Shown here in pieces: positions 3,458-36,075 of a DNA stretch of 40,952 bases. The translations under genes and the position numbers were made by a program. Below the pieces are notes generated by a model that saw only the letters and a list, made by a program, of their open reading frames with translations, did not search any database and was not told where the DNA came from. This stretch comes from a virus: positions 1-40,952 of IMG/VR virus record IMGVR_UViG_3300000557_000007; one strand, written 5' to 3'. Within the stretch, counting starts at the first letter, position 1; each line of letters opens with the position of its first letter.

Positions 3458-4075
3458 GTGGTAGCTTTGATTCCTTCATTAGCAATTACGGTACTGTTAG
3501 TATTATATTTTTATTATATTGATCCTAATAGGGAACCTATCGGTAAGATCATAGAAGCTTTGTTATTAGGGTTCTTGATAGCTTATCCAGCTAGCCAGTT
3601 GCAAGGATTTATACCTAGTGTTGAACATTATTTCTATAAATCGTTTATATCGGCAGGGTTGATAGAAGAATTCTTTAAATTACTGGCGTTATTTATCATA
3701 TTGTATGGTAGTAAGCATTATAATGAAAAAATAGATGGTATTACTTATGGTGTGATGGTAGCTTTAGGATTTTCAGTAGCTGAGAATCTGTTGCTTATAC
3801 AGGACGTGCAGGTAGGATTAGTAAGGGCGTTTACCGCTACTCCTGCACATGCGTTATATGGTATAAGCATGGGCTACTATTTTAGTAAGTTTATACATAG
3901 GGAGCAAGTTAGGTATCTACTACCAGCATTGTTTATTCCTGTAGTTTTGCATGGAGTATATAACGTGATAATAATGTCGGGATATATATTCTCTTTATTA
4001 TTGTTTATACCGTTTATGGTATATATGTGGGTATTATCTATGAGGAAGCATGATAGATATAGCGATAAAGTTTGA
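3458..4075 (+). CDS. PrsW-like intramembrane protease
   Basis: A 205-residue, strongly hydrophobic protein with about six to eight membrane segments and the PrsW-family signatures: E70-E71-x-x-K74 in IEEFFKLL, DGITYGVMVALGF with E109-N110, H131 in PAHALYG, and H165 in LHGVYN. In Bacillus, PrsW makes the first cut in the anti-sigma factor RsiW and so switches on an envelope-stress sigma factor. The GTG start at 3458 is set by GGAGGT (3444-3449); the nearby ATG at 3453 hits a stop at once. Such a protease is unexpected among phage structural genes. It could activate a host stress regulon, process a phage membrane protein, or remodel host surface proteins; these roles are inference. Confidence 0.85.
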   Translation: MVALIPSLAITVLLVLYFYYIDPNREPIGKIIEALLLGFLIAYPASQLQGFIPSVEHYFYKSFISAGLIEEFFKLLALFIILYGSKHYNEKIDGITYGVMVALGFSVAENLLLIQDVQVGLVRAFTATPAHALYGISMGYYFSKFIHREQVRYLLPALFIPVVLHGVYNVIIMSGYIFSLLLFIPFMVYMWVLSMRKHDRYSDKV

Positions 4076-8256: not shown

Positions 8257-8622
8257 TAGGCGAGGAGGGTTCCAGTAGAAATACCTTGGCAAGTGGACTT
8301 GTGGTGTACTTCTGATCAACAAATGACGCAGCTAATTCAGGAGTTAGTATTTTGGTTGATGGATGAGCCTACGTTTTTAGTACAGGAACCTACGACAGGT
8401 CAGCAGTATCATTTTAATATATTCTTTAGTAGAGGAGATATTACCGATAATACGGATGTTCAAGGATTTACGGAACTCGGTAGATTGCATAGATCTACAT
8501 TAGAAATTATGACCGACGAGGCTAGAATATTCATGCCTTACGGAAAATACACTATCCTTCATATCGACTGGGAAGTTGAAGTGGTGGATAAGATTAATAA
8601 AGAAGATTGGGATAAACTTTAA
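8257..8622 (+). pseudogene. Partial tandem duplicate of the tail-terminator-like gene
   Basis: Codons from 8272 repeat the second half of the preceding gene (from 7909 there) with most residues kept: PVEIPWQ-x-DLWC, QLIQELVFWL, FTELGRLHR, DEARIFMPYGK. The copies are exactly 121 codons apart in the same frame, separated by TAA TAG. AGGAGGG (8263-8269) is present but no ATG, GTG or TTG lies at proper spacing; the first in-frame start is a GTG at 8293, inside the homologous part and about 24 bases from that site. This is best read as a remnant of a duplicated gene, although the frame is intact to its TAA and a 109-residue product is possible. The many silent and conservative differences mean the duplication is not recent. 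Confidence 0.6.
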
Positions 8623-8647
8623 TAATTAGGATATAGGAAGGTGAACT

Positions 8648-9523
8648 ATGATGGTTGACGACGATAAAACGGTAACGATCATAATGGAAGAAATGGAAGG
8701 TTATGATGTGCAGTTTATTGTTATGAATCAGGATGAGGAGTATTTAGAGGATGCTCAGGTTGTATTTGATGATGAATTAGGAGATACTAATGCATTAGGT
8801 AGAGAATCCTTTAGAGTACCACTTCCAGGAGGAGTATACTCCTATCAGGTAAGTAAGGAAGGATATTATGCGGTAACTGGAAGTGCAGAAGTTTTTGAGG
8901 ATAAAGTAATAGAAGTCATATTAGGAAGAGTTCCTGACGTATCAAGAGTACGGTACCAGAGATGTACGGATATCAGGATTACTTGGAGTTATCCTGAAGA
9001 TCTTGCGACTGAGGAGTATGAAGTAGTATTCTTAGATCACGAAGATAATGAGATCGATACTCAAACAGTAACTCATGGAGGTAAGGCAAGTGAGCCTACT
9101 CCTCCAGATCCAGAAGGAATGACTTTTATTGGATGGGATAAAAGCCTCGTAAATATTACTGAAGATACAGTAATAAGAGCTCAGTATGAGATCAAAACTT
9201 ATACAGTTATATTCCAATCCATTATAGAAGGTGATCAGTATGTTATCAGTGAACAACAGGTAGATCATGGAGGATCAGCAGATGAACCTGATGAAGGAGA
9301 TGTTCCTGAGAAGGATGGTTACGAATTTGTAGGATGGGACCACGACTATGAAGATTGGAACTATGTAACAGAAGATATGACAATCACTGCTGAGTATGAG
9401 CCTGTAGAAGAGCCGATATTTGAACGTCTAACAGACACAGATGAGGACTGGAACCGCGAGGGCACAGTACTCCGTAATGCTAAAACACACAACGATAAAC
9501 TGGAGATGGACGAAACCTACTAA
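8648..9523 (+). CDS. Modular display protein with InlB B-type repeats
   Basis: ATG 8648 or 8651 follows AAGGTG. Residues 15-95 look like a carboxypeptidase-regulatory/PEGA-type beta sandwich (EDAQVVFDDELGDTNALG, KEGYYAVTG). Residues 97-118 (RYQRCTDIRITWSY) match the first strands of an FN3-like domain and closely resemble a segment in the sheath gene. Two InlB B-type repeats follow (about 125-182 and 184-253), each with HGG-x-A, GWD and ITEDT...A-x-YE marks. The last 35 residues use a different, more GC-rich codon set and look foreign. The protein is probably virion-attached (tail or neck decoration) and may bind the host surface. Position directly before the sheath suggests related function or a split-off part of it. 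Confidence 0.6.
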   Translation: MMVDDDKTVTIIMEEMEGYDVQFIVMNQDEEYLEDAQVVFDDELGDTNALGRESFRVPLPGGVYSYQVSKEGYYAVTGSAEVFEDKVIEVILGRVPDVSRVRYQRCTDIRITWSYPEDLATEEYEVVFLDHEDNEIDTQTVTHGGKASEPTPPDPEGMTFIGWDKSLVNITEDTVIRAQYEIKTYTVIFQSIIEGDQYVISEQQVDHGGSADEPDEGDVPEKDGYEFVGWDHDYEDWNYVTEDMTITAEYEPVEEPIFERLTDTDEDWNREGTVLRNAKTHNDKLEMDETY

Positions 9524-9529
9524 ACTAAC

Positions 9530-9565
9530 CGAACCTGAAGTCTGCTTTGTCGGGCTTCAGGTTCG
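9530..9565 (+). terminator. Hairpin between the display gene and the sheath gene
   Basis: A perfect 11-bp inverted repeat (CGAACCTGAAG at 9530-9540 and its complement at 9555-9565) encloses a 14-base loop. It is followed by TTAAAATAA and not by a clean T-run, so termination may be partial. It lies inside the compositionally odd block and may have arrived with it. Confidence 0.55.
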
Positions 9566-9594
9566 TTAAAATAACTTAAAATGAGGTGATTAAA

Positions 9595-12500
9595 GTGTCA
9601 ATAACTTTTGGCGAGGAAATCAGAATCTGGAAATACACCGAACACTCTGACATTGTTTATGCCGTAGCAGTCGACTCCGATGGCTACATCTATAGTGCAT
9701 GTTGGGATAACGAAGTCCACAAAATCGACCCCGACGGCAACAACGTCTGGAAATACACCGAATACTCTGGCAGTGTTTATGCCGTAGCACTCGACTCCGA
9801 TGGCTACGTCTATAGCGGATCCGTCTCCTATGATGGAGTCCACAAAATCGATCCAGACGGCTCTAACGTCTGGAAATACACCGAACACACTGGCACTGTT
9901 CGTGCCGTAGCAGTCGACTCCGATGGCTACATCTATAGCGGATCCGTCGATAATGAAGTCCACAAAATCGATCCAGACGGCAACAACGTCTGGAAATACA
10001 CCGAACACTCTGACATTGTTCGTGCCGTAGCAGTCGACTCTGACGGCTACGTCTATACCGCATCCCAAGATAATGAAGTCCACAAAATCGATCCAGACGG
10101 TAACAACGTCTGGAAATACACCGAACACTCTGGCGGTGTTTATGCCGTAGCACTCGACTCCGACGGCTACGTCTATAGCGGATCCACCGCAAATGAAGTC
10201 CACAAAATCGACCCCGATGGCAACAACGTCTGGAAATACACCGAACACACTGGCGATGTTTATGCCGTAGCAGTCGACTCTGACGGCTACGTCTATACCG
10301 CATCCCAAGATGATGAAGTCCACAAAATCGACCCCGACGGCAACAACGTCTGGAAATACACTGGACACACTGGCAATGTTTTTGCCGTAGCACTCGACTC
10401 CGATGGCTACATCTATACCGCATCCCTCGATGAAGAAGTCCACAAAATTCAAGACAATTATAAAATCACATCAGCTTATCCTTCAATAGTTAAGGTAAGG
10501 TACGTTAGATGTAATGATGTTGAAGTTACTTGGGATTATTACTTAGCTGCAATTGCAATAGAGATTTCAACTAAAGAAGAATTACAAAAGATAGGTGTGC
10601 ATGAAAGTTTTCCGATGGATGCTCATTATAAGTTAATGAATGATATAGATTTAGAAGGTGAAAATATAAAACCTATTGGTGGATTACATGAAACTACTCT
10701 TCCTGAAGAAGATAGGTTTAAAGGCATACTTGATGGTAATGGCTATAAAATTCATAATGGCGAAATTAAACATGAAGGTAAGCGTTACATTGCACTGATT
10801 GCTCACGGCGATGGTTGTAAGATTAAAAATTTAGGAATTGAAAATGTTGATGTCAAAGGATCTGACGATGTAGTAGGATGTTTAGTGGGTTTAACTGACT
10901 ATGATTATACTGAGATTGAGAATTGTTATTCAACAGGAAATGTCGAGGGAGATCAGTTTGTAGGTGGTTTAGTAGGGTATAATTGTGGAGTAATAAAACA
11001 AAGTTATGCAGTAGGGGATGTAGAAGGTAGGAAGCATGTGGGTGGACTGTCGGGTATTAATGAAGGCGACGGCGAAATTTTAAATTGTTATGCAAAAGGT
11101 AGCGTTATAGTTTCAGAAGGTTGGGCAGGAGGTTTAGTAGGTGGTTCTTCTTGGTCTTTGGGATCTATTGAGAATTGTTATTCTACAGGATCCGTATCTT
11201 CTGTAAGTAATTCAGGAGGACTTTTAGGGGAATCTCCTCCAGCAGAGAGTGTTCATAATTGTTATTGGGATACTGAAACTTCAGGAACGGAGACTGGAAT
11301 TGGGGAAGGCGAAGGAGATGTAGAAGGTAAAACTACTGCCGAAATGCAAGACATAGAAACTTTTGAGCCTGAATGGGATATAGCAACTAAAGAAGATTAC
11401 GATGATGAAGTTTGGTATATAGATGATGGAAATGATTATCCTCGCTTATACTGGGAACTTCAACCTGAAAAACCTGAGCCTGAGGTAGAAGATATAAAGT
11501 TTTCTATAGAACGTAGTATAGATGGAGGTCGATGGACTCATATAGGAGATAAGGAAGGTGATCCTGATTATATAATGTATTCTTATTTGGATGTAGGTGT
11601 AATAGATAAGGTTTATGGTGTAGGTAATGTATCTTATAGAGTAAGAACTATTGAGCCTGGAATTAGTAGGTTTTCTGATCCTGGTAGTATAGAAATTATG
11701 GGATCAAGAGCAGAAATTGCTAAAGGGAGGAGATTGATTATGCCTAAAGGTGTAAGTCCGAGAATTATTACTAAAGAGACAGATTATACAGGTTACATGG
11801 AAGGTTCTCCGATAGGTGTACCTTATGGAACTATAGGAGGTGCTACGAAAGGTGAGTTTGGTAAGATATACGATATTTACTCACCTGAGGACTTTATTAG
11901 ACAATTAGGATTTCCTATGACGGAGAGTTATTCAAACTTAGGAGCGTTTATGTACTTGAAACATGGGAACTTACTTAGATATATGAGAATAGGAGACGAG
12001 GAAAAGGCAGAACTATCGGAAGTGATTATCGAAGCTAAAGATGATGAAGATCCTCCTAACAAAAGAGATATTGTTAGGATTACAGGTGATACTAAAGGCA
12101 CATATTTTGATAAAGTATCGGTAGAAGTATCTTTAGTGGATGATCTTACTAGCGAGGAGGAAGGTGAGTACAAGCAGAATCAATTTAGCTTGACAGTTTA
12201 TTATGACGGTAGAACTGTTGAAAGTTACCCAGAGGTATCTTTAGTTAAGGATGATCACCACTTTATTGTAGCGGAATTAGAAGGATCAAGATTCATCAAA
12301 GCAGAAGCATTAGAAGATTTAGCTGATGAAGGATTAGAAGAAGATGAGGAAGTTGTAACTGGGATGTATTATCTGGATGGTGGTGATGATGGCTACGAAG
12401 ATCTTGAATCTAGTGATTATATAGATGCAATAGAAGGGTTTAAGCACGAAGAGATAGTAGATATAAGAACCTTCTCTATTCCTGATTGTATGGGTAGGCA

Positions 12501-13296
12501 TAAGGATGTAATAAGAGCTATGGAAGATTTAGCAGAATTTCGTCAGGATGTAGCTATTTTTATAGATACTCCAGAAGAATACATGGATAGCTTAAGATTA
12601 ACTTCTAGATGGCATAATGGTTATTTAGGTGATTCTACGGATCCAGAGAATGTTGATCCTACTGAGCCTATTGATCATAGCTACTTAGGCATTTATTATC
12701 CATGGGTGATTGTTAATATCAATTACCTTAGGGATCATCAAGTGATCCCTCCGTCTTCAGTGGTTGCAGGAGCTTATGCGAGATCTTATGAGATGAGTCA
12801 ACCGTGGTTTGCTCATGCAGGAGTATCCAGAGGACTTATTGATGTAGTGGATGTCGTACGTAACTTAAATAAAGAAGAAAGGCATCAATTGTACACTGGT
12901 GATAATAGAATTAATTCTATAATAGCTATAAAGAACTTAGGAGTTATGATTTATGGTAATAGAACTGCTCAGAGCTTTCCTACTGTTAGGGATCGGATGA
13001 ACGTAAGAATGTTATTATTGGAAACTCAGTCGGTAGTAAAGAGGGTATCTAGAGAGATTAAATTTGAACCTCATGATGAAGATAGTTGGGAAAATTGGAC
13101 TAGCAGAGTGGAAGATTACATGGATAAGGTTAAAGAAAATAGAGGTGTATATTGGTATGATGTACGATTAAATATAACAGAAGAAGATATTAAATTAGGT
13201 AGATTACCAGCGAAGATATTTATATCACCTACTCGGACGATTGAAGAGATAACTATTGAATTTGTATTAACCGATGAGGATGTAGAATTTAGTTAA
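9595..13296 (+). CDS. Tail sheath protein with large N-terminal display region (propeller, FN3, GLUG)
   Basis: GTG 9595 follows GAGGTGA (9584-9590). The gene codes 1233 residues. Residues 5-287 are seven 40-residue repeats (AVAVDSDGYVY, EVHKIDPDGNNVWKY), enough for a closed seven-bladed propeller. Residues 293-318 (VRYVRCNDVEVTWDY) and 630-705 (IKFSIERSIDGGRWTHIG, YRVRTIEPGISRFSDP) read as two parts of one FN3-like domain. Between them, about 325-620, is a GLUG-type region with repeated GGLVG and NCYSTG motifs. From residue 716 (MPKGVSPRIITKETDYTGY) to the end is a normal contractile-tail sheath, including YYPWVIVNINYLRDHQ and RTAQ near the C-terminal core. An internal ribosome binding site and ATG at 11740 would produce the bare 518-residue sheath. 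The sheath call is strong; the display role is inference. Confidence 0.9.
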   Translation: MSITFGEEIRIWKYTEHSDIVYAVAVDSDGYIYSACWDNEVHKIDPDGNNVWKYTEYSGSVYAVALDSDGYVYSGSVSYDGVHKIDPDGSNVWKYTEHTGTVRAVAVDSDGYIYSGSVDNEVHKIDPDGNNVWKYTEHSDIVRAVAVDSDGYVYTASQDNEVHKIDPDGNNVWKYTEHSGGVYAVALDSDGYVYSGSTANEVHKIDPDGNNVWKYTEHTGDVYAVAVDSDGYVYTASQDDEVHKIDPDGNNVWKYTGHTGNVFAVALDSDGYIYTASLDEEVHKIQDNYKITSAYPSIVKVRYVRCNDVEVTWDYYLAAIAIEISTKEELQKIGVHESFPMDAHYKLMNDIDLEGENIKPIGGLHETTLPEEDRFKGILDGNGYKIHNGEIKHEGKRYIALIAHGDGCKIKNLGIENVDVKGSDDVVGCLVGLTDYDYTEIENCYSTGNVEGDQFVGGLVGYNCGVIKQSYAVGDVEGRKHVGGLSGINEGDGEILNCYAKGSVIVSEGWAGGLVGGSSWSLGSIENCYSTGSVSSVSNSGGLLGESPPAESVHNCYWDTETSGTETGIGEGEGDVEGKTTAEMQDIETFEPEWDIATKEDYDDEVWYIDDGNDYPRLYWELQPEKPEPEVEDIKFSIERSIDGGRWTHIGDKEGDPDYIMYSYLDVGVIDKVYGVGNVSYRVRTIEPGISRFSDPGSIEIMGSRAEIAKGRRLIMPKGVSPRIITKETDYTGYMEGSPIGVPYGTIGGATKGEFGKIYDIYSPEDFIRQLGFPMTESYSNLGAFMYLKHGNLLRYMRIGDEEKAELSEVIIEAKDDEDPPNKRDIVRITGDTKGTYFDKVSVEVSLVDDLTSEEEGEYKQNQFSLTVYYDGRTVESYPEVSLVKDDHHFIVAELEGSRFIKAEALEDLADEGLEEDEEVVTGMYYLDGGDDGYEDLESSDYIDAIEGFKHEEIVDIRTFSIPDCMGRHKDVIRAMEDLAEFRQDVAIFIDTPEEYMDSLRLTSRWHNGYLGDSTDPENVDPTEPIDHSYLGIYYPWVIVNINYLRDHQVIPPSSVVAGAYARSYEMSQPWFAHAGVSRGLIDVVDVVRNLNKEERHQLYTGDNRINSIIAIKNLGVMIYGNRTAQSFPTVRDRMNVRMLLLETQSVVKRVSREIKFEPHDEDSWENWTSRVEDYMDKVKENRGVYWYDVRLNITEEDIKLGRLPAKIFISPTRTIEEITIEFVLTDEDVEFS
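9598..10455 (+). repeat. Seven ~120-base repeats coding propeller blades
   Basis: CACAAAATCGA recurs at 9841, 9961, 10081, 10201 and 10321 with an exact 120-base period; the earlier copy at 9718 is 123 bases away because of one extra codon, and a variant copy closes the array at 10441. Each unit codes one 40-residue blade. Units differ mainly around the loop positions (for example SGSV, TASQ, SACW). Confidence 0.9.
11722..11742 (+). promoter_or_regulatory. Internal ribosome binding site and ATG at the display/sheath boundary
   Basis: AAAGGGAGGAG (11722-11732) stands 9 bases (from GGGAGG) before an in-frame ATG at 11740. Initiation here gives MPKGVSPRIITKETDYTGY..., which looks like a native sheath N-terminus, and a 518-residue protein of ordinary sheath length. 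The signal is as strong as those of the free-standing genes of the operon. Confidence 0.75.
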
Positions 13297-13329: not shown

Positions 13330-13869
13330 ATGAGGAAGTGGGATGCTAGGCATCTATCGGATCAGAGAGATTATGAACTGCAACGTCAAAACCACTTTGA
13401 AGTTAAATTTATCAGTAATGACTATATAACATTCCCTGACGATTTTAAGTTAGCAGTACAGAGTTTTCCAGCACCTAATGAAGAGCAAGAAGCAGTTGAG
13501 GTGGAGTATGGTAATACTAGTGTAAATTATGCTGGTACCGTATCATGGGGCGATGGTACAATAACTTTGAGAGATTTTGTAGGTAAGAGGATTAAGGATA
13601 CGGTTAGAAAATGGCGTAAGTTAGCTTTTGATTATGAAACAGGTATGATAGGTCATGCTGAGACTTATAAATGTAAAGGCATAGTAACAGAGTACTCTCC
13701 AGACGGTACTGTTACAGCTAAATGGGATCTTATAGGGTGCTGGGCACAGAGTGTGGACTTTGGCACGTTGGAACATGGTTCGGCAGATAACTTAGATATA
13801 GAAGTTACTGTGCAGTATGATATGGCGATTCCTAAAGATCCTGAGAGATATTGGAGGAGCTACGGATAA
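13330..13869 (+). CDS. Tail tube protein (gp19-like)
   Basis: The ATG at 13330 follows AAAGGAGGTC. The 179-residue protein comes directly after the sheath gene, the invariant order in contractile phages. It shows the tube-protein pattern: FEVKFISNDYITFPDDFKLAVQSFPAP at the N-terminus, a central GTVSWGDGTITLRDFVG strand-turn, a RKWRKLAFDYETG helix and a late GCWAQSVDFGTLEHGS strand pair before a final beta strand. Tubes are stacked hexameric rings through which DNA passes. No oddities. Confidence 0.85.
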   Translation: MRKWDARHLSDQRDYELQRQNHFEVKFISNDYITFPDDFKLAVQSFPAPNEEQEAVEVEYGNTSVNYAGTVSWGDGTITLRDFVGKRIKDTVRKWRKLAFDYETGMIGHAETYKCKGIVTEYSPDGTVTAKWDLIGCWAQSVDFGTLEHGSADNLDIEVTVQYDMAIPKDPERYWRSYG

Positions 13870-18348: not shown

Positions 18349-21294
18349 ATGTATTATGATATGAAAGAACGTCTCAGAAGATTTACTAAGAATTATCGTC
18401 AAGGAATGATTCCGAAGGTAGATTTGGAGATAGGAACTCCTAATGATTATATAGGTTTAGGTACTCTTACTCGTGACAACATGTTAAGTTTTAATTATAA
18501 TAAATTGCCTGGAGGGGTATCTAATCAAGTAGAGATTACATTTTATACAGAAGATATTATGATGGAAGATTATATGGATGTAGAAAATGGTGATAAGACT
18601 ATAGAAGATTATATAGTTGATCATATGCTAGAAGAAGATTCAATAAGATTTAGGTATGGCTATATAGAACCTGAAGGTTATCCTCCTGAAGATGCACCTT
18701 ATTTAATGTCTCCTTGGCATTCAGGTTTAATAATGAGTTATGATATGAATTTTAGAGGAGAGGGTATTGAGTTTACTATAAGGTGTATATCTAACACTAA
18801 TATTGAAGATGATGAGAATCTGATTGCGTTGTATAGATTGTCGGGTGTGAAAAGTCCTATGGAGTTACTTCAAATGGGTGATCAACCTTTTGGGACTAAT
18901 CCATCGCCAGGTGATCCTGGAGCAGGAGTGCCTCCTACGCAGGATTATATTAAGAATGGTGATTACTTGTTAGGAGAACCTGCGGTAAGTCCAAGCGATA
19001 TGAAAGATTATTTACAGAATGGAGTGGCACAAGATAAAGGTGGTGCGACATCATTCCTAGTAGATGCGGTAGATATGTATTATTCACTTACGCAGGAGCA
19101 GAAAGATACTCATGGTTACGAAGATCGTATAAGACCTGATGTGATGATAATTCAGTCAGGTCATGAAACAGCTTGGGGTCATTTCGGTGGAGTGATAGAT
19201 GCGAGTTTTAATAATTATGCAGGTATTAAGGTAGCAAATCCTCCTCCAGGTTCTGATAATATTGCAGGAGCTCATCAAGTATTTGATTCCATGGAAGAAG
19301 GAGTAAGAGCACATCTAAATCATTTTTCTATATATGTTAATTATGAACCTTTAGGAGATGTTCATCCGAGGTATCATACGACAAAGAGTATAATAGATAA
19401 TGATGAAGGTTTTGATAAAGCTAGAACTATAGCTGACTTAGCTCGATGGGCTACAGATGAAAATTATCCAGTAAGATTACAAAATCATTTGAATAATATG
19501 TACGATTATGTAGGCATAGAAATCGAAAGTCAGGAAGTTACAATTCAAGAAAATTTTGAGTTTACGACTCCTGGATTAGGTTTGTTTGGTAATATTTATG
19601 ATGTGATAACTCCTAACAATCCATTTAGTCCTGGTGGATTAGCTTTGTTTAATATAGCTAGATCGATGTTAAGAAGGGCACCACCAGAAGAAGCAGTTAA
19701 ATGGTGTCAGACGGAATTTCGTCCATCTGATGTAGTTAAGGAGATTGCAAAAATTAAAGGGTGGAAGATTGGCAGGATAGAAGAGACTATACCAGTGATT
19801 ATGGAGGATCCTCCTCATTCGTGGTATATGAATCCTATGGTATTTATAAATGAGTATTTAACGGATATATCTATAGCTAGTGAAGCGTTGACTAATAGAG
19901 GGGATTATAGAGTGTATTTAACGGATGAGATAGATGATGACGGAGATCCTACTCCTACGGTAAATTTTCATCCAGCAAATTATGAGGAAGATGCAGAGCA
20001 AGCTCATTTTTATTGGTGGAGAGGTAAACCTTATATGGAGCATGGTGATGAGAGATTCCATAATCTCTTGTTAAATTTTTCACCAGATTTTGAAGGTTTG
20101 TTGATGAAAGATAGTGAGATTACAGGAGGTAGTGTTGATAATGTAGGTTACACAGATGAAACTTCTGGAGAAGTGAATCTAGAAGAACTGGCTGAAGGTG
20201 CGGATGGTATACCTCCTGCTGATAACCCTTCTACTAGGAGCGATAAGAGAGATACACATTTCTGTGAAACTTCTAAAGGAGATTGGGAAGCTAACATAGA
20301 AGCGGAAGTTAGCAAGGATGCAGGAGTATATACAGCTAGTATGGAGATAGTAGGATTTCCTTATGTGCAATTATTGCATCCTATAAGAGTTACTGTATTA
20401 GATAGGTATGGTAATCCACATCATACTTCAGGACTGTATACGGTATTTGAAGTCCAAGAGTCTATCGATATGTCGGGATACACAGTTAGTATATCAAGAG
20501 CGAATAAGTTTTCTTCGTGGTTGCATGATGCACGTATACAGGATATCAAGGAAAGAATAGAACATATGAGAGATTGGGAACCTGGTCAGGAACCTTTTGG
20601 TGAGCGTAGAGGTCGTATAGGAGTAGGAGATATAGCGGGAGCAGAATTTTATGAAGATATCATACCTATTAACAATCAGAATATTACGGGTCGCACATTG
20701 GACTCATTATCTAATATAGTGATTCATAATACAGCAGGTCCTTATGAAGGTAATACTGCTGATAATCATGCTAATGCGATGGCGATACCAGCAGAATGGA
20801 TAGGTAGAACAGCATGGCATTTTACTGTAGATGATTTACATATTATTCAACATGTACCTATAGATGAGAGGGTGATTCATGCTCATAATTGTAATGCCAC
20901 ATCTGTAGGTATTGAGATATGTATGAATAAGCATGGGATGGAGTATTATAACGGTATTGAATATGTGGCTTATAAATTTGTAGGTTATCTGTTAGCATTT
21001 CTTAAGGATGAGATGGGTAAAGAGCCTAATGTAATAAGACATATGGATCATGGACCTACTGCCTGCCCTGTAGTATTAACAATGGGTACGGGTGATCCAA
21101 GTGTTTACGACAATTTATCTTTTAGTGAAAAAGGTGGTCCGATGACTTGGCATTATGCTGGAGACACCTTTGAATATGTAACTAGAGGATGGGACAGGTT
21201 TAAGGCAGCATGTTATGAAGAACGTGATAGGTTAAGACATAAATTAAGAGAGTATGATAGGAACTTAATTATTACAACTCGATCCGAAGTGTGA
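18349..21294 (+). CDS. Baseplate hub with inserted glucosaminidase and C-terminal amidase domains
   Basis: Start ATG 18349 (ATG 18361 also possible). Residues 1-190 and about 400-735 look like a gp27/gpD-type hub (KVDLEIGTPNDYIGLG; later VTVLDRYGNP and FEVQESIDMSGYTVSISRA). Residues 231-390 form a glucosaminidase-type domain, with the likely catalytic Glu E273 in QSGHETAWG and FNNYAGIKV after it. Residues 785-915 form an Amidase_2 domain with H793 (VIHNTAG), H901 and C906 (RHMDHGPTACP). The protein would sit at the centre of the baseplate and open the glycan and the peptide stem as the tube enters. This is a second, virion-borne amidase besides the endolysin. At 981 residues it is much longer than a plain hub (about 400), owing to the two enzyme modules. 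Confidence 0.85.
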   Translation: MYYDMKERLRRFTKNYRQGMIPKVDLEIGTPNDYIGLGTLTRDNMLSFNYNKLPGGVSNQVEITFYTEDIMMEDYMDVENGDKTIEDYIVDHMLEEDSIRFRYGYIEPEGYPPEDAPYLMSPWHSGLIMSYDMNFRGEGIEFTIRCISNTNIEDDENLIALYRLSGVKSPMELLQMGDQPFGTNPSPGDPGAGVPPTQDYIKNGDYLLGEPAVSPSDMKDYLQNGVAQDKGGATSFLVDAVDMYYSLTQEQKDTHGYEDRIRPDVMIIQSGHETAWGHFGGVIDASFNNYAGIKVANPPPGSDNIAGAHQVFDSMEEGVRAHLNHFSIYVNYEPLGDVHPRYHTTKSIIDNDEGFDKARTIADLARWATDENYPVRLQNHLNNMYDYVGIEIESQEVTIQENFEFTTPGLGLFGNIYDVITPNNPFSPGGLALFNIARSMLRRAPPEEAVKWCQTEFRPSDVVKEIAKIKGWKIGRIEETIPVIMEDPPHSWYMNPMVFINEYLTDISIASEALTNRGDYRVYLTDEIDDDGDPTPTVNFHPANYEEDAEQAHFYWWRGKPYMEHGDERFHNLLLNFSPDFEGLLMKDSEITGGSVDNVGYTDETSGEVNLEELAEGADGIPPADNPSTRSDKRDTHFCETSKGDWEANIEAEVSKDAGVYTASMEIVGFPYVQLLHPIRVTVLDRYGNPHHTSGLYTVFEVQESIDMSGYTVSISRANKFSSWLHDARIQDIKERIEHMRDWEPGQEPFGERRGRIGVGDIAGAEFYEDIIPINNQNITGRTLDSLSNIVIHNTAGPYEGNTADNHANAMAIPAEWIGRTAWHFTVDDLHIIQHVPIDERVIHAHNCNATSVGIEICMNKHGMEYYNGIEYVAYKFVGYLLAFLKDEMGKEPNVIRHMDHGPTACPVVLTMGTGDPSVYDNLSFSEKGGPMTWHYAGDTFEYVTRGWDRFKAACYEERDRLRHKLREYDRNLIITTRSEV

Positions 21295-22956: not shown

Positions 22957-24723
22957 ATGGTAGATCCTAAACGGGTTAGAAGAAGGGATGAACTTGATCC
23001 TTCATATACTAAAAGGGATAAGGAAGAGATAGAAAATTATTTGAGGGAATTAGGTAAGGAGTTATCAGAAGGTAGGTGGACTTCTGATGATGCTGCTGAT
23101 ATTGGTAATGTTTTGGTAAACTTGATGGCTACTATGGGGGATATGATAAACCTGTATATGGATAAACAAGCTCTGGAAGCATTCTTAGTTAGGGCACGTG
23201 AAAGAAAGAATGTTATATCCCATTTGAAGCCTTTAATGGGTAAGATAAGACCTCCAGTACCTCCTAAAGTTACTCAAAGATTTTATGCGGATCATAATAG
23301 ATCGATTATAATACCTAAGTTTTATACAGTTACTAATGAAGGTAAGCTTGACAGATTGATAGAGTATCATACTATAGAAGAAACTTCTATAGAGCCTTCA
23401 GAAGGTGGTTATGTGGATGTAGAAGCTATTGAAGGCAGGAAGGTTGATTTAGGTCGAAAGTATAGAGCTGACATTGATGAATTTAATAGGATATTTCTCA
23501 ATGTGGATGATATCTCTTATAGAGCTACTGATGTAGTGATTGATGGTGAACAATGGTATGAAGTTGATAGTGTCAATTTAGTAATGTTGGAGCATGAAAT
23601 TCCAGGTTATGAGCCAGAAGATCAGCGAGTTTATGCTATAGAAGAAGATAGAGAAGGAGACTTCTTTGTTAGATTGAGACCTTCATGGCAGAGCTATGTG
23701 GATGATCCTGATAACGTAAATATTGATATACGATATATTACTACAACAGGTTCTACGATAGGTGCGGAAGTATTAACTAGATTAACTGAGTCTTTATACG
23801 ATGTACCTGCTACGGAAGAAGAAGAACCTTTGAATGTAATAGATATAGTGACTACTGTGAATCATGCATCATCTCTAGGTTATGAACCTGAGCAGGATTT
23901 AGATACAGCTACTTATACAGCTATAAAGGACGCTTCAAGGATGGGATTGAATGTAACGTTGCAGGATTATAAAGCGTACCTAGATAACTATCCTGGGATT
24001 GCTAAAGGTGCAGCTTATGATTGGACTTCTATGTGGAGGCAGGTTATAGGAGAAGCTTTATATGGCGGATACGATTATGATAAAGAGCCAGTAAGTATGT
24101 ATCTATTAACGCAACCTTTTAAGATATACTTACCGATAGCGATGGAGCATGATGTAGGTGGCGAGTTTGAAGAACCTCCTAAGCCTAGTTCAGAATACTT
24201 GTTCGATTTAGAAGATGAGATGAATCGTTTCAGGGTATCTTATCAGGAGCTACATTTAAGGTATGAACAACGGTTTCTGCTTGATGAGAATGATGAACCT
24301 CGGAGTGACTTATGGCTGAGTTTTTTCAAAGATGAGGAGTATTCATCCGATCCTGATGATTTGATAGTACAGGTAGGTGATCCTTTAGTGATTTATCAGC
24401 CTGTTAATCTCATGATAAGGTTAACAGTACCTTACGATTTTAAGGAAAGTGATAGAGCAGGAGTAAGTTATGCAGTTACTCAGAGGATGTTAGAGTTTTT
24501 TAGACCTATCCATCATGAGTTTGGTAGGCATATACATTTATCTAGTATAAATGCTGCTATATTAGGTGCACATGAGGGTATACTTCATGCTTTTATTAAA
24601 GAACCTGAATGTTTAGAAGAGCATATTCGTATGAAGAGTCCGTTTCATTTTCCATATCTAAAAAGTGTGGATTTTGATTGGGTGAAGGAGGATGAGTATG
24701 CGTACTATAGATATAGGTGGTAG
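22957..24723 (+). CDS. Baseplate wedge protein, gp6/J-like
   Basis: ATG 22957 follows GGGAGGTGAGG. The 588-residue protein has the expected opening for the J-like wedge group: about 60 residues of charged helix, then SDDAADIGNVLVNLMATMGDMINLYMDKQALEAFL, matching the 'aDpg..Ll.l.A...' helix of J proteins, and a beta-rich centre. Near residue 300-350 lies LDTATYTAIKDASRMGLNVTLQDYKAYLDNYPGIAKGAAYDW, typical of J. It forms the wedge ring together with the gp25 and gpI-like products. Its 3' end overlaps the next gene by 26 bases. Confidence 0.8.
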   Translation: MVDPKRVRRRDELDPSYTKRDKEEIENYLRELGKELSEGRWTSDDAADIGNVLVNLMATMGDMINLYMDKQALEAFLVRARERKNVISHLKPLMGKIRPPVPPKVTQRFYADHNRSIIIPKFYTVTNEGKLDRLIEYHTIEETSIEPSEGGYVDVEAIEGRKVDLGRKYRADIDEFNRIFLNVDDISYRATDVVIDGEQWYEVDSVNLVMLEHEIPGYEPEDQRVYAIEEDREGDFFVRLRPSWQSYVDDPDNVNIDIRYITTTGSTIGAEVLTRLTESLYDVPATEEEEPLNVIDIVTTVNHASSLGYEPEQDLDTATYTAIKDASRMGLNVTLQDYKAYLDNYPGIAKGAAYDWTSMWRQVIGEALYGGYDYDKEPVSMYLLTQPFKIYLPIAMEHDVGGEFEEPPKPSSEYLFDLEDEMNRFRVSYQELHLRYEQRFLLDENDEPRSDLWLSFFKDEEYSSDPDDLIVQVGDPLVIYQPVNLMIRLTVPYDFKESDRAGVSYAVTQRMLEFFRPIHHEFGRHIHLSSINAAILGAHEGILHAFIKEPECLEEHIRMKSPFHFPYLKSVDFDWVKEDEYAYYRYRW

Positions 24724-27700
24724 AAAAGATATACTTGAAATCTTAAAGTCCGATGTATCTCCAGAGATGCAGGTTAATGAAGATTTAAATGTACTTTTAG
24801 AAGTGTTAGCATCGGAGATTTATCGGTTATATGATAAAGTGCATAGATTCCCTGAGATTATAGATGTGGATTATAGTCCAGAACCTAGATCTGTAGCAGT
24901 TATAGTTGATAAGAATGATGATGAATTAATCAGAGTGTGGAGAGATAGGGTATCTGATTATGAAGGTTATATCGAAGTGATAGAACAAGGCTCAGGAGAT
25001 AGACCTTTGACAGTCGAGTATGATGAATTGAGGAAGATACTTACTATCGAATTAGCTTTAGAGGATGGTAATGTGTCAGATGAAAATCGGATAGGAATTA
25101 TAGCTGATAAGATTAATGAAATTGATGGATTTATAGCGGTCAGTAAAGGTAGGCTAGATGTTATAGATCAGATAGATGCTGATGGGATGCATGCTGGTAT
25201 TGTTGATCCTAGTAGATATTTTGATAATTGGGATCATGTGTTTTATTACTTTTATTTATGGGAAGAAGAACCTTTGGAAGAAGGTACTAAGATATATATG
25301 ATTCCTGATGATGAGTTGTATGAATTTAGGGATGATACTTGGGTAGGTATCGGAGGAGTACCATTTGAAAGAGATCCTAGAGATGACTTCTTACCGTATA
25401 TTGCTGCATACTTAAACTTTAGGTATAAGGATCATCATGATCCTGACGTACAAAGGAATTATATTAAGTATATTAGATCGTTACAAAGGATTAGGGGGTC
25501 AATATGGTCTCTGAAGGTAGCTATATTATTATATGGTAGTGATGAAAGAGCATTGATAGAGTTGCCAGGATTATCTGAATTGCGATTGAATGAATTGTGG
25601 TATCCTGAGAAATTTGAACCTTATGAAGGTATGGTAAAAACTTGGAGTGAAGAATTTAGGGAAGAGATAGGCGAAGATATACCTTATGGTATTATACTTG
25701 TACAGCATGGTAGGGGATGGCAAAATGTAAGGACTCCTTTTACATACTTGGAGCATGTGAGACCTGGAGGTATTAGGCTTGATTTAATAGAGCAAGAAAA
25801 AGAAGAGAATCAAAATGTAACGTGGGGTAGAAGGTTATGGTATGCTCCTATGAGAATGATAGAAGTAAGTCATATGGCATGGCAGGATCAAAGGTTAATT
25901 ATACATCCTGATGCTGATACGCCTTATTATGAAGAAGGTTATCGGCATTTTCTGGATTGGAGAGATTACGATCCTCCTGAACCTACTGCTCCTACTATTA
26001 CTCAACATCCAGATCATGAAGACATATATCATGGAGATTATGCTCAATTTGATGTAATAGTCAGTGGTACATTTCCGATGGATTATCAATGGCAGTATTC
26101 AGACGATGGAGGGAGTACTTGGAATGATATAGAAGGTGCGGAAGGTTCTGCGTACTCCATTAGTAGTGTAATTTATAGTGAACATAACGGTAATCAGTAT
26201 AGATGTAAGGTATCTAATGAATGGGGAGAAGCAGAATCTGATCCTGCTACTTTGACGGTTTTAGTGGATTCTTTAGAATTTATAAAAGAGCCTGATGACG
26301 TAGAAGCGTCTCATGGTGAAGAAGTTACTTTTGAAGTAGATGCAGAAGGCACTACTCCTATTGAATACCAGTGGCAGTATACCGATGAAAGTGATCCTGA
26401 TGAAGGAGATTGGAATAATATCTCTGGTGAAACAAGTACTAGTTTGAGCATTGAAGCTGACTACAATGTGAATCATGAACGTAAATATAGATGTATGGTA
26501 TTTAACCCTGCGAATATCGAAGGAGTATCTACGAGTATTGCAACGTTGACAGTAGTATCTGAAAACATAGTTGTAGAGAGGATAACAGAAGAAGTAGAAG
26601 TGGTGGAAGGTGGAGATACTACAGTAATTGTAGAGGTATTGTCAGGAACTCCAGTAATAAATTTTCAGTGGCAGAAGTCTGATGATGATGGTAGTACTTG
26701 GGATGATGTTGCAGGAGCAAGTGGTGATGTTACAGAAGTACCTTATATCTTAGAACATGATATAGAAGATGCTGATTACGAGAATGATGGAAGGTTATAT
26801 AGATGTAAATTGGATAATGTAGAAGGTGAAGTAACATCTGAAAACATATTGTATACAGTTAAGCAGTTACCGAGTTTTGTAGATCATCCAGAGGATAAAG
26901 AAGTGGAATCTGGTGATGAAGTTGTATTTAATGCAGAAGTGTCTGGTACTGAACCTATAGAAGTGATCTGGCAGTATGTAGATGATTTAGAAGAATCTGA
27001 ATGGGTCGATTTAACATCCTGGACGGAATTATCAGGTACGGTTACTGATTATACGATAGAGTCTGCAGAATTTGGTGATACAGGTTACTACAGGTGTAGG
27101 GCAAGTAATGATTATGGGATAGTTACTTCTAATGTAGCTTACTTAGAAGTCACAGGTGATGGTCCTACTATTATAGAGGATTTACCTGATGAGAAGGTAG
27201 TGGAAGAAGGCGATAATGTTGAGTTATCCATAGAAGCTGAAGGTAGGGGAGAATTGATATATGCGTGGTATAGATCGGAGGACGATGGTGCAACTTGGGA
27301 TTATGTAGATGCGGGTGAAGTAGCTCCTCCTTATTATACTATAAATGATATTGATACTGATGAACATGGTAATAAGTATAAGTGTAAGGTAACTGATCTT
27401 GACGATAGCGAAGAATCTAACTCGTGCAGGATAGTATTTAATTTCAATATCGAAGCTTCTGCAGTTTCTGAAGAAGGAGGTAGCGTTGAAGGCGATGGTG
27501 AGTATGAATACGGTGATAATGCAGAATTATATGCTAATCCTGAAGAAGGTTATGAGTTTATTAGATGGAAAGAAGATGGTACGGAAGTTAGTACTGATAA
27601 TCCTTATATATTTGAAGTAACAGAAGATAGAACGCTTGAAGCTAAATTTGGATTGAAGGAGTATGAAGTAGAGATCACTATAGAACCTGAGAACGCAGGA

Positions 27701-29239
27701 ACGATAAAAGAAGGAGAGGGTGAATACGATCATGGTGATGAAGTAACTGTGGAGGTTGAGGCTAATACAGGCTATGAATTTGTTAGATGGGAAGAAGGTG
27801 GTACTGAAGTAAGTACTGATAATCCTTGGACATTTACGATAACTGCGAGTAGGGATTTAGTAGCTGTATTTGAATTAAAAGAATATACAGTAACATTTAA
27901 GGATTATGATGATACTGTAATAGATGAGCAGGAAGTAGAACATGGTTCTGATGCAGAATTACCTGACGATCCTGAAAGAGAAGGGTATACTTTTGTAGGT
28001 TGGGATGAAAGTCATGAGAATATAACAGAAGATACTGTAATAACTGCTGAGTACGAGGTAAATACATATACTGTAAGTGTTACTGCTGAACCTGAGGAAG
28101 CTGCAAAGGAGTTAAGTGGTGCAGGCGATTATGATTATGATACAGAGGTGGAGTTGGAAGCTACTCCAGAGGACGCTTACGAATTTGTCAGATGGGAAGA
28201 AGATGGTACTGAAGTAAGTACTGCTAATCCTTGGAAGTTTGATATGGGAAGCGATGATATGAATGTAGTAGCTGTATTTGAGCCTAAGAATACTATCCAA
28301 TTCGAGCAGGATGGATCGGAACAGCAGTTTGAAGTAGAATTGTCAGGAGGTCAAGAAGCTGCATGGGAATTATATGGTGATGGAGATTTGTTGGACGTAT
28401 TAATAGGTAATCAGGTAACTATCCATATAGATGATTATGGTAGTTATACTGATAAGCATTTTAAGTTAGTACTTCCGAGTTGGGAATCCTTAGTAGGAAC
28501 TTTAGATTGGAGCGATAAGGGATTACAGGGAGAACTAACGGAAGATATTAAATATCTAACTCAACTAGAAAGGTTATATTTATCAGAGAATAATTTTTCT
28601 GGTAGTATACCTAATGTATTTGATGATCTGAGTGATAACTTAGAAAGATTATATTTAGATGATAACAATTTTACGGGCGAGTTTCCTAGCACTATTGAGG
28701 ATGCGAGTTCTTTAACACGTGTAGATTTTTCATATAATAGTCTGGATGAGTACAATAGTGGTGTTAGTAATACTACGTTGACGCATTTCCGAGTGAGTCG
28801 TAATGATTTTAGTATAGAAGACATTAAGCTTATGTTAGATCACTTCTATACGTTATACTACAATAATCCTGAACAAGCAACTAAGGAAGTTCGTTTAGAT
28901 TTTAATGCTCTTTTTGATGAGGAAGATTATGAATTTATACATGATATAAGTAGTGCTAGTAGTGATAGTATTACAGTCACTGCCCCAGGTTGGGGCGATG
29001 ATGATTATGCAGGTGATACGATTAGGATATTTAAAACATCTCTTTTAGGTGATGGTCAAGTTAGAATTATAGAGTCTAATACAAGTGATACGTTGTACGT
29101 TACTGAGGATTGGGATCCGATTCCAGAAGGGTGTAATAGATTTGTTGTTTATGAACCTCCTAGTGTAGGAGAACAACCTTGGTGGCATGTGGAGCAGTTA
29201 GAAGATGCTGGATGGTCGTTGTATGTTCAGTGGAGTTAA
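24698..29239 (+). CDS. gpI-like tail protein with five Ig, four InlB-type, LRR and shared C-terminal modules
   Basis: ATG 24698 lies 6 bases after AAGGAGG; ATG 24692 is too close. Residues 1-425 are the baseplate-attached, gpI-like part (TIDIGGRKDILEILKSD, later DDFLPYIAAYLNF and RGSIWSLKVAILLYG). Then five Ig-like domains of about 95-100 residues start near 429, 522, 620, 721 and 819, with repeated YQWQ...YRCKV...TLTV marks. Four InlB B-type repeats start near 914, 987, 1062 and 1124 (EFVRWEEDGTEVST, FVGWDESHENITED). Residues 1198-1400 hold a beta domain and plant-type LRRs (LERLYLSENNFSGSIPN). The end (1434-1513) is a module also found at 33814-36075. The gene looks built by serial addition of display modules to a baseplate protein, probably as a fibre that binds host surface. 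Confidence 0.8.
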   Translation: MRTIDIGGRKDILEILKSDVSPEMQVNEDLNVLLEVLASEIYRLYDKVHRFPEIIDVDYSPEPRSVAVIVDKNDDELIRVWRDRVSDYEGYIEVIEQGSGDRPLTVEYDELRKILTIELALEDGNVSDENRIGIIADKINEIDGFIAVSKGRLDVIDQIDADGMHAGIVDPSRYFDNWDHVFYYFYLWEEEPLEEGTKIYMIPDDELYEFRDDTWVGIGGVPFERDPRDDFLPYIAAYLNFRYKDHHDPDVQRNYIKYIRSLQRIRGSIWSLKVAILLYGSDERALIELPGLSELRLNELWYPEKFEPYEGMVKTWSEEFREEIGEDIPYGIILVQHGRGWQNVRTPFTYLEHVRPGGIRLDLIEQEKEENQNVTWGRRLWYAPMRMIEVSHMAWQDQRLIIHPDADTPYYEEGYRHFLDWRDYDPPEPTAPTITQHPDHEDIYHGDYAQFDVIVSGTFPMDYQWQYSDDGGSTWNDIEGAEGSAYSISSVIYSEHNGNQYRCKVSNEWGEAESDPATLTVLVDSLEFIKEPDDVEASHGEEVTFEVDAEGTTPIEYQWQYTDESDPDEGDWNNISGETSTSLSIEADYNVNHERKYRCMVFNPANIEGVSTSIATLTVVSENIVVERITEEVEVVEGGDTTVIVEVLSGTPVINFQWQKSDDDGSTWDDVAGASGDVTEVPYILEHDIEDADYENDGRLYRCKLDNVEGEVTSENILYTVKQLPSFVDHPEDKEVESGDEVVFNAEVSGTEPIEVIWQYVDDLEESEWVDLTSWTELSGTVTDYTIESAEFGDTGYYRCRASNDYGIVTSNVAYLEVTGDGPTIIEDLPDEKVVEEGDNVELSIEAEGRGELIYAWYRSEDDGATWDYVDAGEVAPPYYTINDIDTDEHGNKYKCKVTDLDDSEESNSCRIVFNFNIEASAVSEEGGSVEGDGEYEYGDNAELYANPEEGYEFIRWKEDGTEVSTDNPYIFEVTEDRTLEAKFGLKEYEVEITIEPENAGTIKEGEGEYDHGDEVTVEVEANTGYEFVRWEEGGTEVSTDNPWTFTITASRDLVAVFELKEYTVTFKDYDDTVIDEQEVEHGSDAELPDDPEREGYTFVGWDESHENITEDTVITAEYEVNTYTVSVTAEPEEAAKELSGAGDYDYDTEVELEATPEDAYEFVRWEEDGTEVSTANPWKFDMGSDDMNVVAVFEPKNTIQFEQDGSEQQFEVELSGGQEAAWELYGDGDLLDVLIGNQVTIHIDDYGSYTDKHFKLVLPSWESLVGTLDWSDKGLQGELTEDIKYLTQLERLYLSENNFSGSIPNVFDDLSDNLERLYLDDNNFTGEFPSTIEDASSLTRVDFSYNSLDEYNSGVSNTTLTHFRVSRNDFSIEDIKLMLDHFYTLYYNNPEQATKEVRLDFNALFDEEDYEFIHDISSASSDSITVTAPGWGDDDYAGDTIRIFKTSLLGDGQVRIIESNTSDTLYVTEDWDPIPEGCNRFVVYEPPSVGEQPWWHVEQLEDAGWSLYVQWS

Positions 29240-33813: not shown

Positions 33814-36075
33814 ATGGCATATGAAGAATATTTTGATTTTGATGAAGAAAACCAGACTATAACGGACTATAACCCTGAACATCCTAAACATCCAGGTAGT
33901 GAGGAAAATCCTATAGAAATTCCGAGTGAGATAAACGGGATTGAAGTTCTTAAGATCGGTGATTATGCATTTATAGATGGAGGTTTTGGTGATCCTCCTT
34001 ATGATGTTAAGTGGGTTACTATCCCTGATACTGTAACAGATATAGGAGTGAGAGCCTTTAATGAGAATTCCCTCGTAGAAGTAGTTATTCCAGATAGTGT
34101 AGTGAGCATAGGAATGCGGGCTTTCTACGGAAACGATATAGTAGATTTGCATATTGGTAGTGAGGTAGAATTTATAGATTGGGGTGCTTTTGGAAATAAT
34201 AAAATTGAAAATTTAGTTATTCCTAATAGTGTAGAGGATTTAGGGACTTCTGCATTTAGGGACAATAAAATTAGTAAAGTGGATATATCTGATAATCTTA
34301 GCGAGATACCGTCAAGAACATTTGAACGGAATGAGTTGGAGGAGGTAACTGTACCCGAGATAGTGACATATATAGGCGAAAATGCTTTTGCTTATAATTC
34401 TGATTTGAAGAAAATAAGGATTCCAGGAGATGTTGAACTAGATGGCGGAGGTCACACAGGGATTCCAGGACCTACGGGAGCTTTTAATGATGCCTACAAT
34501 GATACCGATCAAGAAGCAGGAACTTACGTATTTATCGATAGTGATAATGGATGGGTGAGAGCTGGCGATTATCATTCAGGTACAATTACGGGTGCAGTTA
34601 CAGATTATGACACAGGCGATGTTATTGATGATGCGATAGTAAGGACGGTAGATGAAGTGTATGGAGAAGTTCAGATAGTAGAAGTAGATAGTGAAGGGAA
34701 GTATACTTATGAGTACTTTCCTTTAGGTACACATGATTTGCAGGTGATATCTCCAGGTTATGATAGAATGACTAAAACATCTCCTGAGATAGTTGAAAAT
34801 GATCAGGAAGTTCAATTAGATTTTGAACTTGAAGCTATACCACGTCCAGATTATCTTAAGATAATGGTAAGTGGAGGCGGAGGTGGAGTAAAGTCAGGTC
34901 ATAGTTCATTGTTTGGACATCGGGGTGGAGGCACTACTGGTAAAACGATTACATTCGGTCAGAATGGGGGTGAACAAACTTTAGAATTACCTGGTGACGA
35001 AGAGGATTTGTCTGAGGTGTATTGGTATGTAGATGGTAGTATGTATGGGAAGGGTAGTGAGGTATTATTATTCGAATCGGAGGAATCTCGTACAGTGAGA
35101 TTATTGTTGCCTAGTTGGGATATTGTTGATGGTGAATTAGATTGGAGAGGTAAAGGTATTGAAGGTACGATGAGTCGTACGTGGACTAATTTAGTAAACC
35201 TGACTAAGCTTGATTTGAGTAATAATTCTTTGAGTAAGAATATTCCCCTTGAGATTTCAAAATTGGTTAACTTAGAGGAACTTCGTTTAAGAGCTAATGA
35301 CTTTGAGGGTGAGGCACCTGAACTTTCGGATTTAATTCATCTTAAAGTAATTAATTTTGATTTTAATGATTTAACATATGTTCCTTTAGAAAATTACTCG
35401 CAGTTAAGTAATTTAGAAGAGTTGAGGTTGCGAAGTAATGATTTTTATAGATCTTTACCAGCAGAAATATCAGACTTATCTGAACTTAGAATTCTTGATT
35501 TGCAGTATAATAGTTTCTATGGAAGTATTGGAATTGGAATATCTCAATTGTATAAACTTGAAGAGTTACTTTTGAATAGAAATAATTTTGATGATTATGA
35601 AGAGGGAGCTTTAGCAACTCAGGCGAATTTGTCTAAAGTACATCTTGATGTTAATAATATAGATTCGACATCTACTATCGATGTTATTCTTAAGGATCTT
35701 TACGATAGCTTGGATTTGGAAGATAGGGTGTCCTGTGATGTGAACTTAACATGTAATGCTGCACCTAGTAGTGATACAGTTGGTTATGTTAATTATACTG
35801 ATAGTGTAGAATACTTTTTTTCGGATCATGATGCGGAATGGGAAGAGGATGAGCACGCTGGTAAGAGGGTGTATGCTCATCTTGATGAAGGTGGGTATGG
35901 AATTATGATGGAGATAGAATCAAATACAGAGAGCAGCATATATGTAACAGAAGGTTGGGATATAGGAGATGATAAATTTTCATTTTATATAATATATACA
36001 GAAGGGCAGGGAATGTGGTATTTTGAACAAGTTAATCAAGCGGGTTGGACTATTACTACGGATTTGGGTTTATAA
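33814..36075 (+). CDS. BspA/LRR display protein, probable receptor-binding fibre
   Basis: ATG 33814 begins the frame, coupled to the previous stop. Residues 30-235 are BspA-type LRR_5 repeats (VTIPDTVTDIGVRAF, VVIPDSVVSIGMRAF, NLVIPNSVEDLGTSAF). Residues 255-340 form a carboxypeptidase-regulatory-like domain (GTITGAVTDYDTGDVIDDAI). A Gly-rich hinge (MVSGGGGGVKSGHSS) leads to a beta domain and LRRs (about 442-640). The last 75 residues (from about 680) include SNTESSIYVTEGWD and MWYFEQVNQAGW, which match the end of the gpI-like protein at 24698-29239. BspA repeats bind host surfaces or matrix proteins in bacteria, so a host-recognition role on the virion is likely. Confidence 0.65.
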   Translation: MAYEEYFDFDEENQTITDYNPEHPKHPGSEENPIEIPSEINGIEVLKIGDYAFIDGGFGDPPYDVKWVTIPDTVTDIGVRAFNENSLVEVVIPDSVVSIGMRAFYGNDIVDLHIGSEVEFIDWGAFGNNKIENLVIPNSVEDLGTSAFRDNKISKVDISDNLSEIPSRTFERNELEEVTVPEIVTYIGENAFAYNSDLKKIRIPGDVELDGGGHTGIPGPTGAFNDAYNDTDQEAGTYVFIDSDNGWVRAGDYHSGTITGAVTDYDTGDVIDDAIVRTVDEVYGEVQIVEVDSEGKYTYEYFPLGTHDLQVISPGYDRMTKTSPEIVENDQEVQLDFELEAIPRPDYLKIMVSGGGGGVKSGHSSLFGHRGGGTTGKTITFGQNGGEQTLELPGDEEDLSEVYWYVDGSMYGKGSEVLLFESEESRTVRLLLPSWDIVDGELDWRGKGIEGTMSRTWTNLVNLTKLDLSNNSLSKNIPLEISKLVNLEELRLRANDFEGEAPELSDLIHLKVINFDFNDLTYVPLENYSQLSNLEELRLRSNDFYRSLPAEISDLSELRILDLQYNSFYGSIGIGISQLYKLEELLLNRNNFDDYEEGALATQANLSKVHLDVNNIDSTSTIDVILKDLYDSLDLEDRVSCDVNLTCNAAPSSDTVGYVNYTDSVEYFFSDHDAEWEEDEHAGKRVYAHLDEGGYGIMMEIESNTESSIYVTEGWDIGDDKFSFYIIYTEGQGMWYFEQVNQAGWTITTDLGL

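Follow-up and report, generated by a model that had tools for sequence, protein, structure and literature searches.

How does a phage come to carry a complete beta-propeller in front of its tail sheath, written largely in codons that are not its own? We address this question for a 40,952-base metagenomic virus contig from an IMG/VR record (hereafter "the window"), in which a sequence-only reading had pointed out a block of foreign composition. Phage adhesion modules have mostly been studied on fibres and baseplates, whereas here a propeller would sit on the sheath. If the domain arrived intact from DNA of another composition, it would represent module exchange caught before codon adaptation. 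It would also suggest a candidate route to decorate the shaft of a contractile tail without disturbing its assembly.

Several measures agree on the extent of the block (Table 1). The GC content rises from about 0.37 to 0.45–0.51 within it. GC skew is −0.01 to −0.16 in profile windows starting at 9401–10201, and positive in all others along the 41 kb. In 30-codon windows the third-position GC is about 0.45–0.69 inside the block, against 0.23 ± 0.09 outside. A codon-likelihood scan, which sets third-base use learned from the blades against the phage's own codon use, gives the block 288 nats (the propeller share of this score is circular, because the model was trained on the blades), while the runner-up segment anywhere else scores 8.8. 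The codon switch from about 9410 to about 10455 that had been read from the letters is matched by the GC profile, the codon scan and the repeat search, and codon usage is not flat in either the 30-codon windows or the likelihood scan.

Table 1. Features of the propeller-sheath locus, with coordinates in the window.
Feature	Position	Strand	Evidence or remarks
Upstream gene, 291 aa	8648..9523	+	Weak PEGA-like start, Listeria-Bacteroides (Flg_new) repeats, foreign C-terminal tail from ~9422
Foreign-composition block	9422..10467	+	Top segment of codon-likelihood scan; edges uncertain by ~20 bases
Hairpin between both genes, 14–15 pair stem	9529..9569	+	Fold −25.9 kcal/mol, z = −3.9
GAGGTGA ribosome site, with GTG 9595 as probable start of the long frame	9584..9597	+	Anti-SD duplex
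Long open frame of 1,233 aa that joins propeller, GLUG segment and tail sheath	9595..13296	+	Open frame and domain matches
Seven WD40/PQQ-like blades, 40–41 codons each	9628..10458	+	Blade table, AlphaFold, PDB match
Connecting segment of native composition with GLUG repeats	10456..11739	+	Pfam Glug 6.5e-17, 4 stretches; phrog_30905 4.9e-8
Internal ribosome site AAAGGGAGGAG with the canonical sheath start, ATG 11740	11721..11742	+	Anti-SD duplex, alignment
Tail sheath, 518 aa, gp18-like	11740..13296	+	PHROG 23 tail sheath 3.6e-47
Tail tube gene directly after the sheath, as in SP-15	13330..13869	+	PHROG 4542 tail tube 1.5e-23

The block contains, in order, about 34 last codons of the upstream gene, a hairpin, a ribosome site with its start codon, and seven blades; the foreign composition stops where the last blade stops. 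The sequence-only reading had listed the gene end, the hairpin and the blades, and added the start of the sheath. That last item has to be dropped, as the conserved sheath begins at 11740, around 1.3 kb downstream of the block. No inverted repeats were reported at the block edges. A short paralogous motif lies once on each side of the block, at 8945–8986 (VRYQRCTDIRITW) and 10492–10530 (VRYVRCNDVEVTW), and nowhere else in the window.

The seven blades are non-independent evidence for a foreign origin, because they are copies of one unit. The 37-codon end of the upstream gene lies outside the training data and is an independent test of foreign codon usage. It scores 15.0 nats, compared with a maximum of 2.4 in 11,011 other 37-codon stretches.

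Could the shift in codons and GC reflect the amino-acid content of propellers, or selection for expression, rather than a foreign origin? Gly, Val, Ala and Asp are abundant in propellers. As an amino-acid control we used same-family propellers from phages and bacteria, measured identically. In AT-rich loci (L002, L007, L015 and L193) the GC of the propeller is 0.02–0.11 above the remainder, e.g. 0.35 vs 0.28 in L007, 0.37 vs 0.31 in L015 and 0.42 vs 0.31 in L193, and therefore the GC rise in the block could be partly compositional. However, third-position GC is just 0.11–0.16 in the propellers of L002, L004, L007 and L015, and 0.57 here. Since same-family propellers in AT-rich loci keep a low third-position GC, we regard the codon shift as real. 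The shift also takes in the 34–37 codon tail of another gene and ends at the last blade, while other structural genes, presumably highly expressed, show nothing similar. We consider this explanation very improbable.

An assembly chimera is harder still to believe. Here the propeller of another organism would have been joined into the contig via its repeats, which do favour misassembly, and the contig comes without read coverage. However, the flanking genes on both sides fit a single SP-15-like order, and a chimera must exit and re-enter the same phage genome, once inside a gene end and once in frame.

A foreign origin is the simplest reading of the codon shift. The block has what is expected of horizontally acquired DNA, a composition that differs from its neighbours and sharp edges. 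The sequence-only reading had called the insertion recent. From the codons, which have not ameliorated, we infer that this is the best reading. Searches of phages and plasmids gave no DNA-level donor or sister copy, the exact blade pattern had no match in viral contigs, and the closest protein matches to the propeller are 58% identical. The foreign tail of the upstream gene returned no matches as a query. Close relatives of the phage were sought with the sheath, the baseplate protein and the pre-sheath segment alone, and none were found. Soda-lake myxobacterial loci were the best candidate donor by codon likelihood, yet we do not name them as the donor because this comparison samples essentially one 40-codon unit and the third-base use of the upstream tail differs.

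The propeller itself is regular. Tandem Repeats Finder reports an array at 9626–10448 with a period of 120, 6.8 copies and 86% matches; blade 2 has 41 residues, and pairwise DNA identity between blades is 0.78–0.92. AlphaFold, run with a 12-sequence alignment, predicts 28 strands in seven blades with a mean pLDDT of 80–98 per ten residues over residues 11–290. An N-terminal strand (residues 10–14), ahead of the first full blade, joins three strands of the last repeat in a WD40-like closing blade. The top full-length PDB match of this model is the seven-bladed v13WRAP-T (Foldseek; rmsd 1.1, TM 0.95 (target)/0.82). Pfam matches are to PQQ_2 (3e-19, 70 bits, cut-off 27.6) and WD40 (5e-17, 62 bits, cut-off 27), and PHROG 8401, a beta-propeller repeat protein family, matches at an E-value of 3.7e-94. 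The domain is therefore predicted to be a complete seven-bladed WD40/PQQ-like beta-propeller with a closed ring. The count of exactly seven blades, made earlier from the sequence, is borne out by the blade table and by the closed, high-confidence AlphaFold ring. It is plausible that the near-identical units change by recombination; between-blade DNA identity reaches the upper value given above here, and 0.95–1.0 in some propeller relatives.

What might such a ring bind? The top-face positions of WD40 propellers, R1-2, R1 and D-1, have been defined from sequence features (PMC3419727). These correspond to blade columns 9, 11 and 26, which host 6, 3 and 5 distinct residues among the seven blades and rank 1st, 4th and 2nd of 40 columns by number of residues. 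A permutation test gives p ~0.0003, although the test treats columns as exchangeable and the shared ancestry of the blades makes this value a guide rather than a strict probability. The scaffold positions are almost invariant, silent sites included. This pattern of variation is consistent with a putative binding ring that arose by copying of a single blade, followed by diversification of the contact face. A diversity-generating retroelement was considered as the source of the variation and rejected: the codons of column 9 fit NNT, but the other variable columns show no adenine pattern and there is no reverse transcriptase among the listed ORFs. An invariant scaffold combined with top-face positions that vary between blades suggests an adhesin role. 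By family and by variation pattern, an auxiliary adhesin on the tail shaft appears to be the best-supported role.

The gene upstream of the propeller has a Pfam match to Flg_new (9.6e-14), and a PEGA match (0.006) that falls below its cut-off. The hairpin that follows is terminator-like in its stem but is without a clear T run, and a terminator scan did not list it. Of the two GTG codons near the N-terminus of the long frame, the one at 9595 has an anti-SD duplex of −11.9 kcal/mol; the one at 9586 has +0.7 kcal/mol and no ribosome site.

The propeller is joined in frame, via the GLUG segment, to a T4-gp18-like tail sheath. The PHROG 23 match spans residues 30–517 of the sheath, i.e. its conserved core, and the next gene downstream encodes the tail tube; a Pfam match to Phage_sheath_1 was found only below its cut-off. 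AlphaFold gives a pLDDT of 41 for the GLUG and sheath part. Inspection by eye had raised the possibility that the GLUG segment interrupts an FN3 domain. Pfam and PDB sequence searches lent this no support, which is no more than a negative hint, as the spliced 98-residue query includes a few joining residues.

The sheath portion has a start of its own. ATG 11740 is preceded by AAAGGGAGGAGATTGATT and lies exactly where sheath relatives begin in the alignment. Its anti-SD duplex of −13.2 kcal/mol is the best of the 37 in-frame start codons in this open frame. In the whole window an equally good duplex precedes 5 of 612 internal in-frame start codons and 4 of 241 internal ATGs, therefore the chance of finding one at a single pre-specified place is about 1–2%. 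A total of 76 sheath relatives start no more than 10 aa before the core. SP-15, LIS04, L096 and L097 also have a strong SD and an ATG at this position, preceded by one small ORF. Orthologues that all shared the block at equal divergence would have spoken against an insertion; the N-terminal extension is found in 0 of 75 sheath relatives with a complete 5′ end. We read ATG 11740 as the probable native sheath start, which would have been retained when an adhesin lying upstream was joined to the sheath in frame. The presence of this ribosome site and ATG suggests that the gene may have two products.

Is only the long form made, so that each sheath subunit begins with the propeller and the GLUG segment? 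The frame is uninterrupted from 9595 to 13296, the start at 9595 has a good ribosome site and added domains on sheath proteins are known (PMC9230969). However, in the sheaths modelled in that work both termini lie in the conserved core and the added domains are described as located away from the tube. It would be unusual for every subunit to have 715 residues added at its N-terminus, none of the sheath relatives shows this, and the strong ribosome site at the canonical start is left unexplained. We judge the long form on its own to be unlikely.

Nor do we think it likely that the propeller and GLUG segment form a separate adhesin gene, with a sequencing or assembly error hiding a stop or frame change before 11740. 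In its favour, the ribosome site and start codon at 11740 are what a separate sheath gene would have, and the record is a metagenomic virus contig without reads. On the other hand, the junction is read through in an open frame with native codon usage and the sequence gives no hint of a reading error.

The explanation that we favour, and consider reasonably probable, is an acquired propeller fused to the sheath, with plain and propeller-bearing sheath made from two starts and an auxiliary adhesin role for the long form. The phage, a myophage and distant relative of Bacillus phage SP-15, would have acquired the block from DNA in which C-ending codons prevail. The block lies in an accessory region, with the gene that matches SP15_041 on one side and the tail sheath on the other. 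Judging from composition and structure prediction, it brought the end of one gene, a hairpin, a new start and a complete propeller. Plain sheath would then most likely be the main translation product, accompanied by some long sheath. The long sheath may display the propeller on the tail exterior, where as an auxiliary adhesin it could attach to a protein or glycan of the host surface, either ahead of adsorption or in the course of it.

We are more tentative about a further idea: that two starts in one gene build a mixed sheath, and that the propeller is exchanged as a self-contained cassette of gene end, hairpin and start. If cassette exchange is true, the adhesive coat of a tail shaft could be replaced in a single recombination step.

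The rest of the phage places the locus in context. The nearest sheath relatives are ~30–36% identical. Among named phages the nearest sheaths are those of SP-15 and LIS04 (27–29% identical; SP-15 28.8% over 92% of the query). The distance from the preceding conserved gene to the sheath holds one small ORF in SP-15, LIS04, L096 and L097, and is ~3.5 kb here (8257–11739). The 7648–8256 gene, conserved upstream of the SP-15 sheath, has its end partly duplicated in the gene at 8293–8622, and the pre-sheath region looks duplication-prone.

Further adhesive modules are found elsewhere in the window. The genes at 24692–29239 and 33814–36075 encode large tail-region proteins with Ig, InlB-type and leucine-rich repeats. 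A tail protein at 18349–21294 bears glucosaminidase and amidase domains. The lytic enzymes of the phage include a CWB2-binding amidase, which suggests a Gram-positive type of host. The tail-gene region also holds unusual cargo, a LicD-family match at 306–1334 (5.4e-7) and a PrsW intramembrane protease at 3458–4075 (2.5e-31). Among the relatives of the propeller, L020, a 3,173-residue fragment of a soda-lake bacterial surface protein, combines GLUG repeats, InlB-type repeats and propellers, the same set of modules as in the tail genes of this phage.

How does this arrangement compare with known systems? The closest named sheaths, from Bacillus phage SP-15 and Listeria phage LIS04 (Thornevirus), share the gene order around the sheath; however, they are without the N-terminal extension. 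Amplified propellers are known from every domain of life, and from viruses as well (PMC9218822). The repetitive, recently amplified WRAP, WD40 and PQQ propellers (PMC9218822, PMC6805158) have near-identical 40-residue blades and a closed ring, as here, and seven-bladed WRAP designs are the best structural matches to the present model. These two studies mention viruses only in passing, and the present array differs from the propellers they describe in being part of a phage structural gene, with codons foreign to the genome.

Phage propellers of the same family, with 42–58% identity, are found in Salicola phage SCTP-2 (gp247) and in clostridial phages (L007/L018), where they occur in tail-fibre-like proteins. 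The PHROG 8401, SCTP-2 and clostridial propellers either stand alone as proteins or form the C-terminal part of a fibre-like protein, and none is attached to a sheath. Furthermore, unlike the propeller described here, their codon usage fits their own genomes. In a Halanaerobiales contig (L015, 1–3071) the propeller opens a gene and is followed by a Zot-like ATPase, an inovirus-like arrangement.

Multi-domain sheaths provide another comparison. Their extra domains are mostly Ig-like and lie away from the tube, inserted within a core that holds both chain ends (PMC9230969). The type 2 and 3 sheaths combine a gp18-like core with extra domains thought to aid adhesion, and in this respect resemble the present gene; here, however, the propeller and GLUG segment precede the core, which has its own start. 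Phage CBB has whiskers along its contractile tail, but the genes for these are not known (PMC5259590). In our literature search, which was of incomplete coverage, we came across neither a propeller-bearing sheath nor a sheath gene with two starts.

A parallel for the proposed expression is T7 gp10A/10B, where a frameshift puts a domain on a fraction of the subunits of a structural protein. One gene gives a plain and a decorated form, as we propose here. The means would differ, a frameshift in T7 and, putatively, two starts with an N-terminal addition in this phage. Phages are already known to swap adhesive modules onto their tail proteins, and the sheath-fused propeller is a variant of this.
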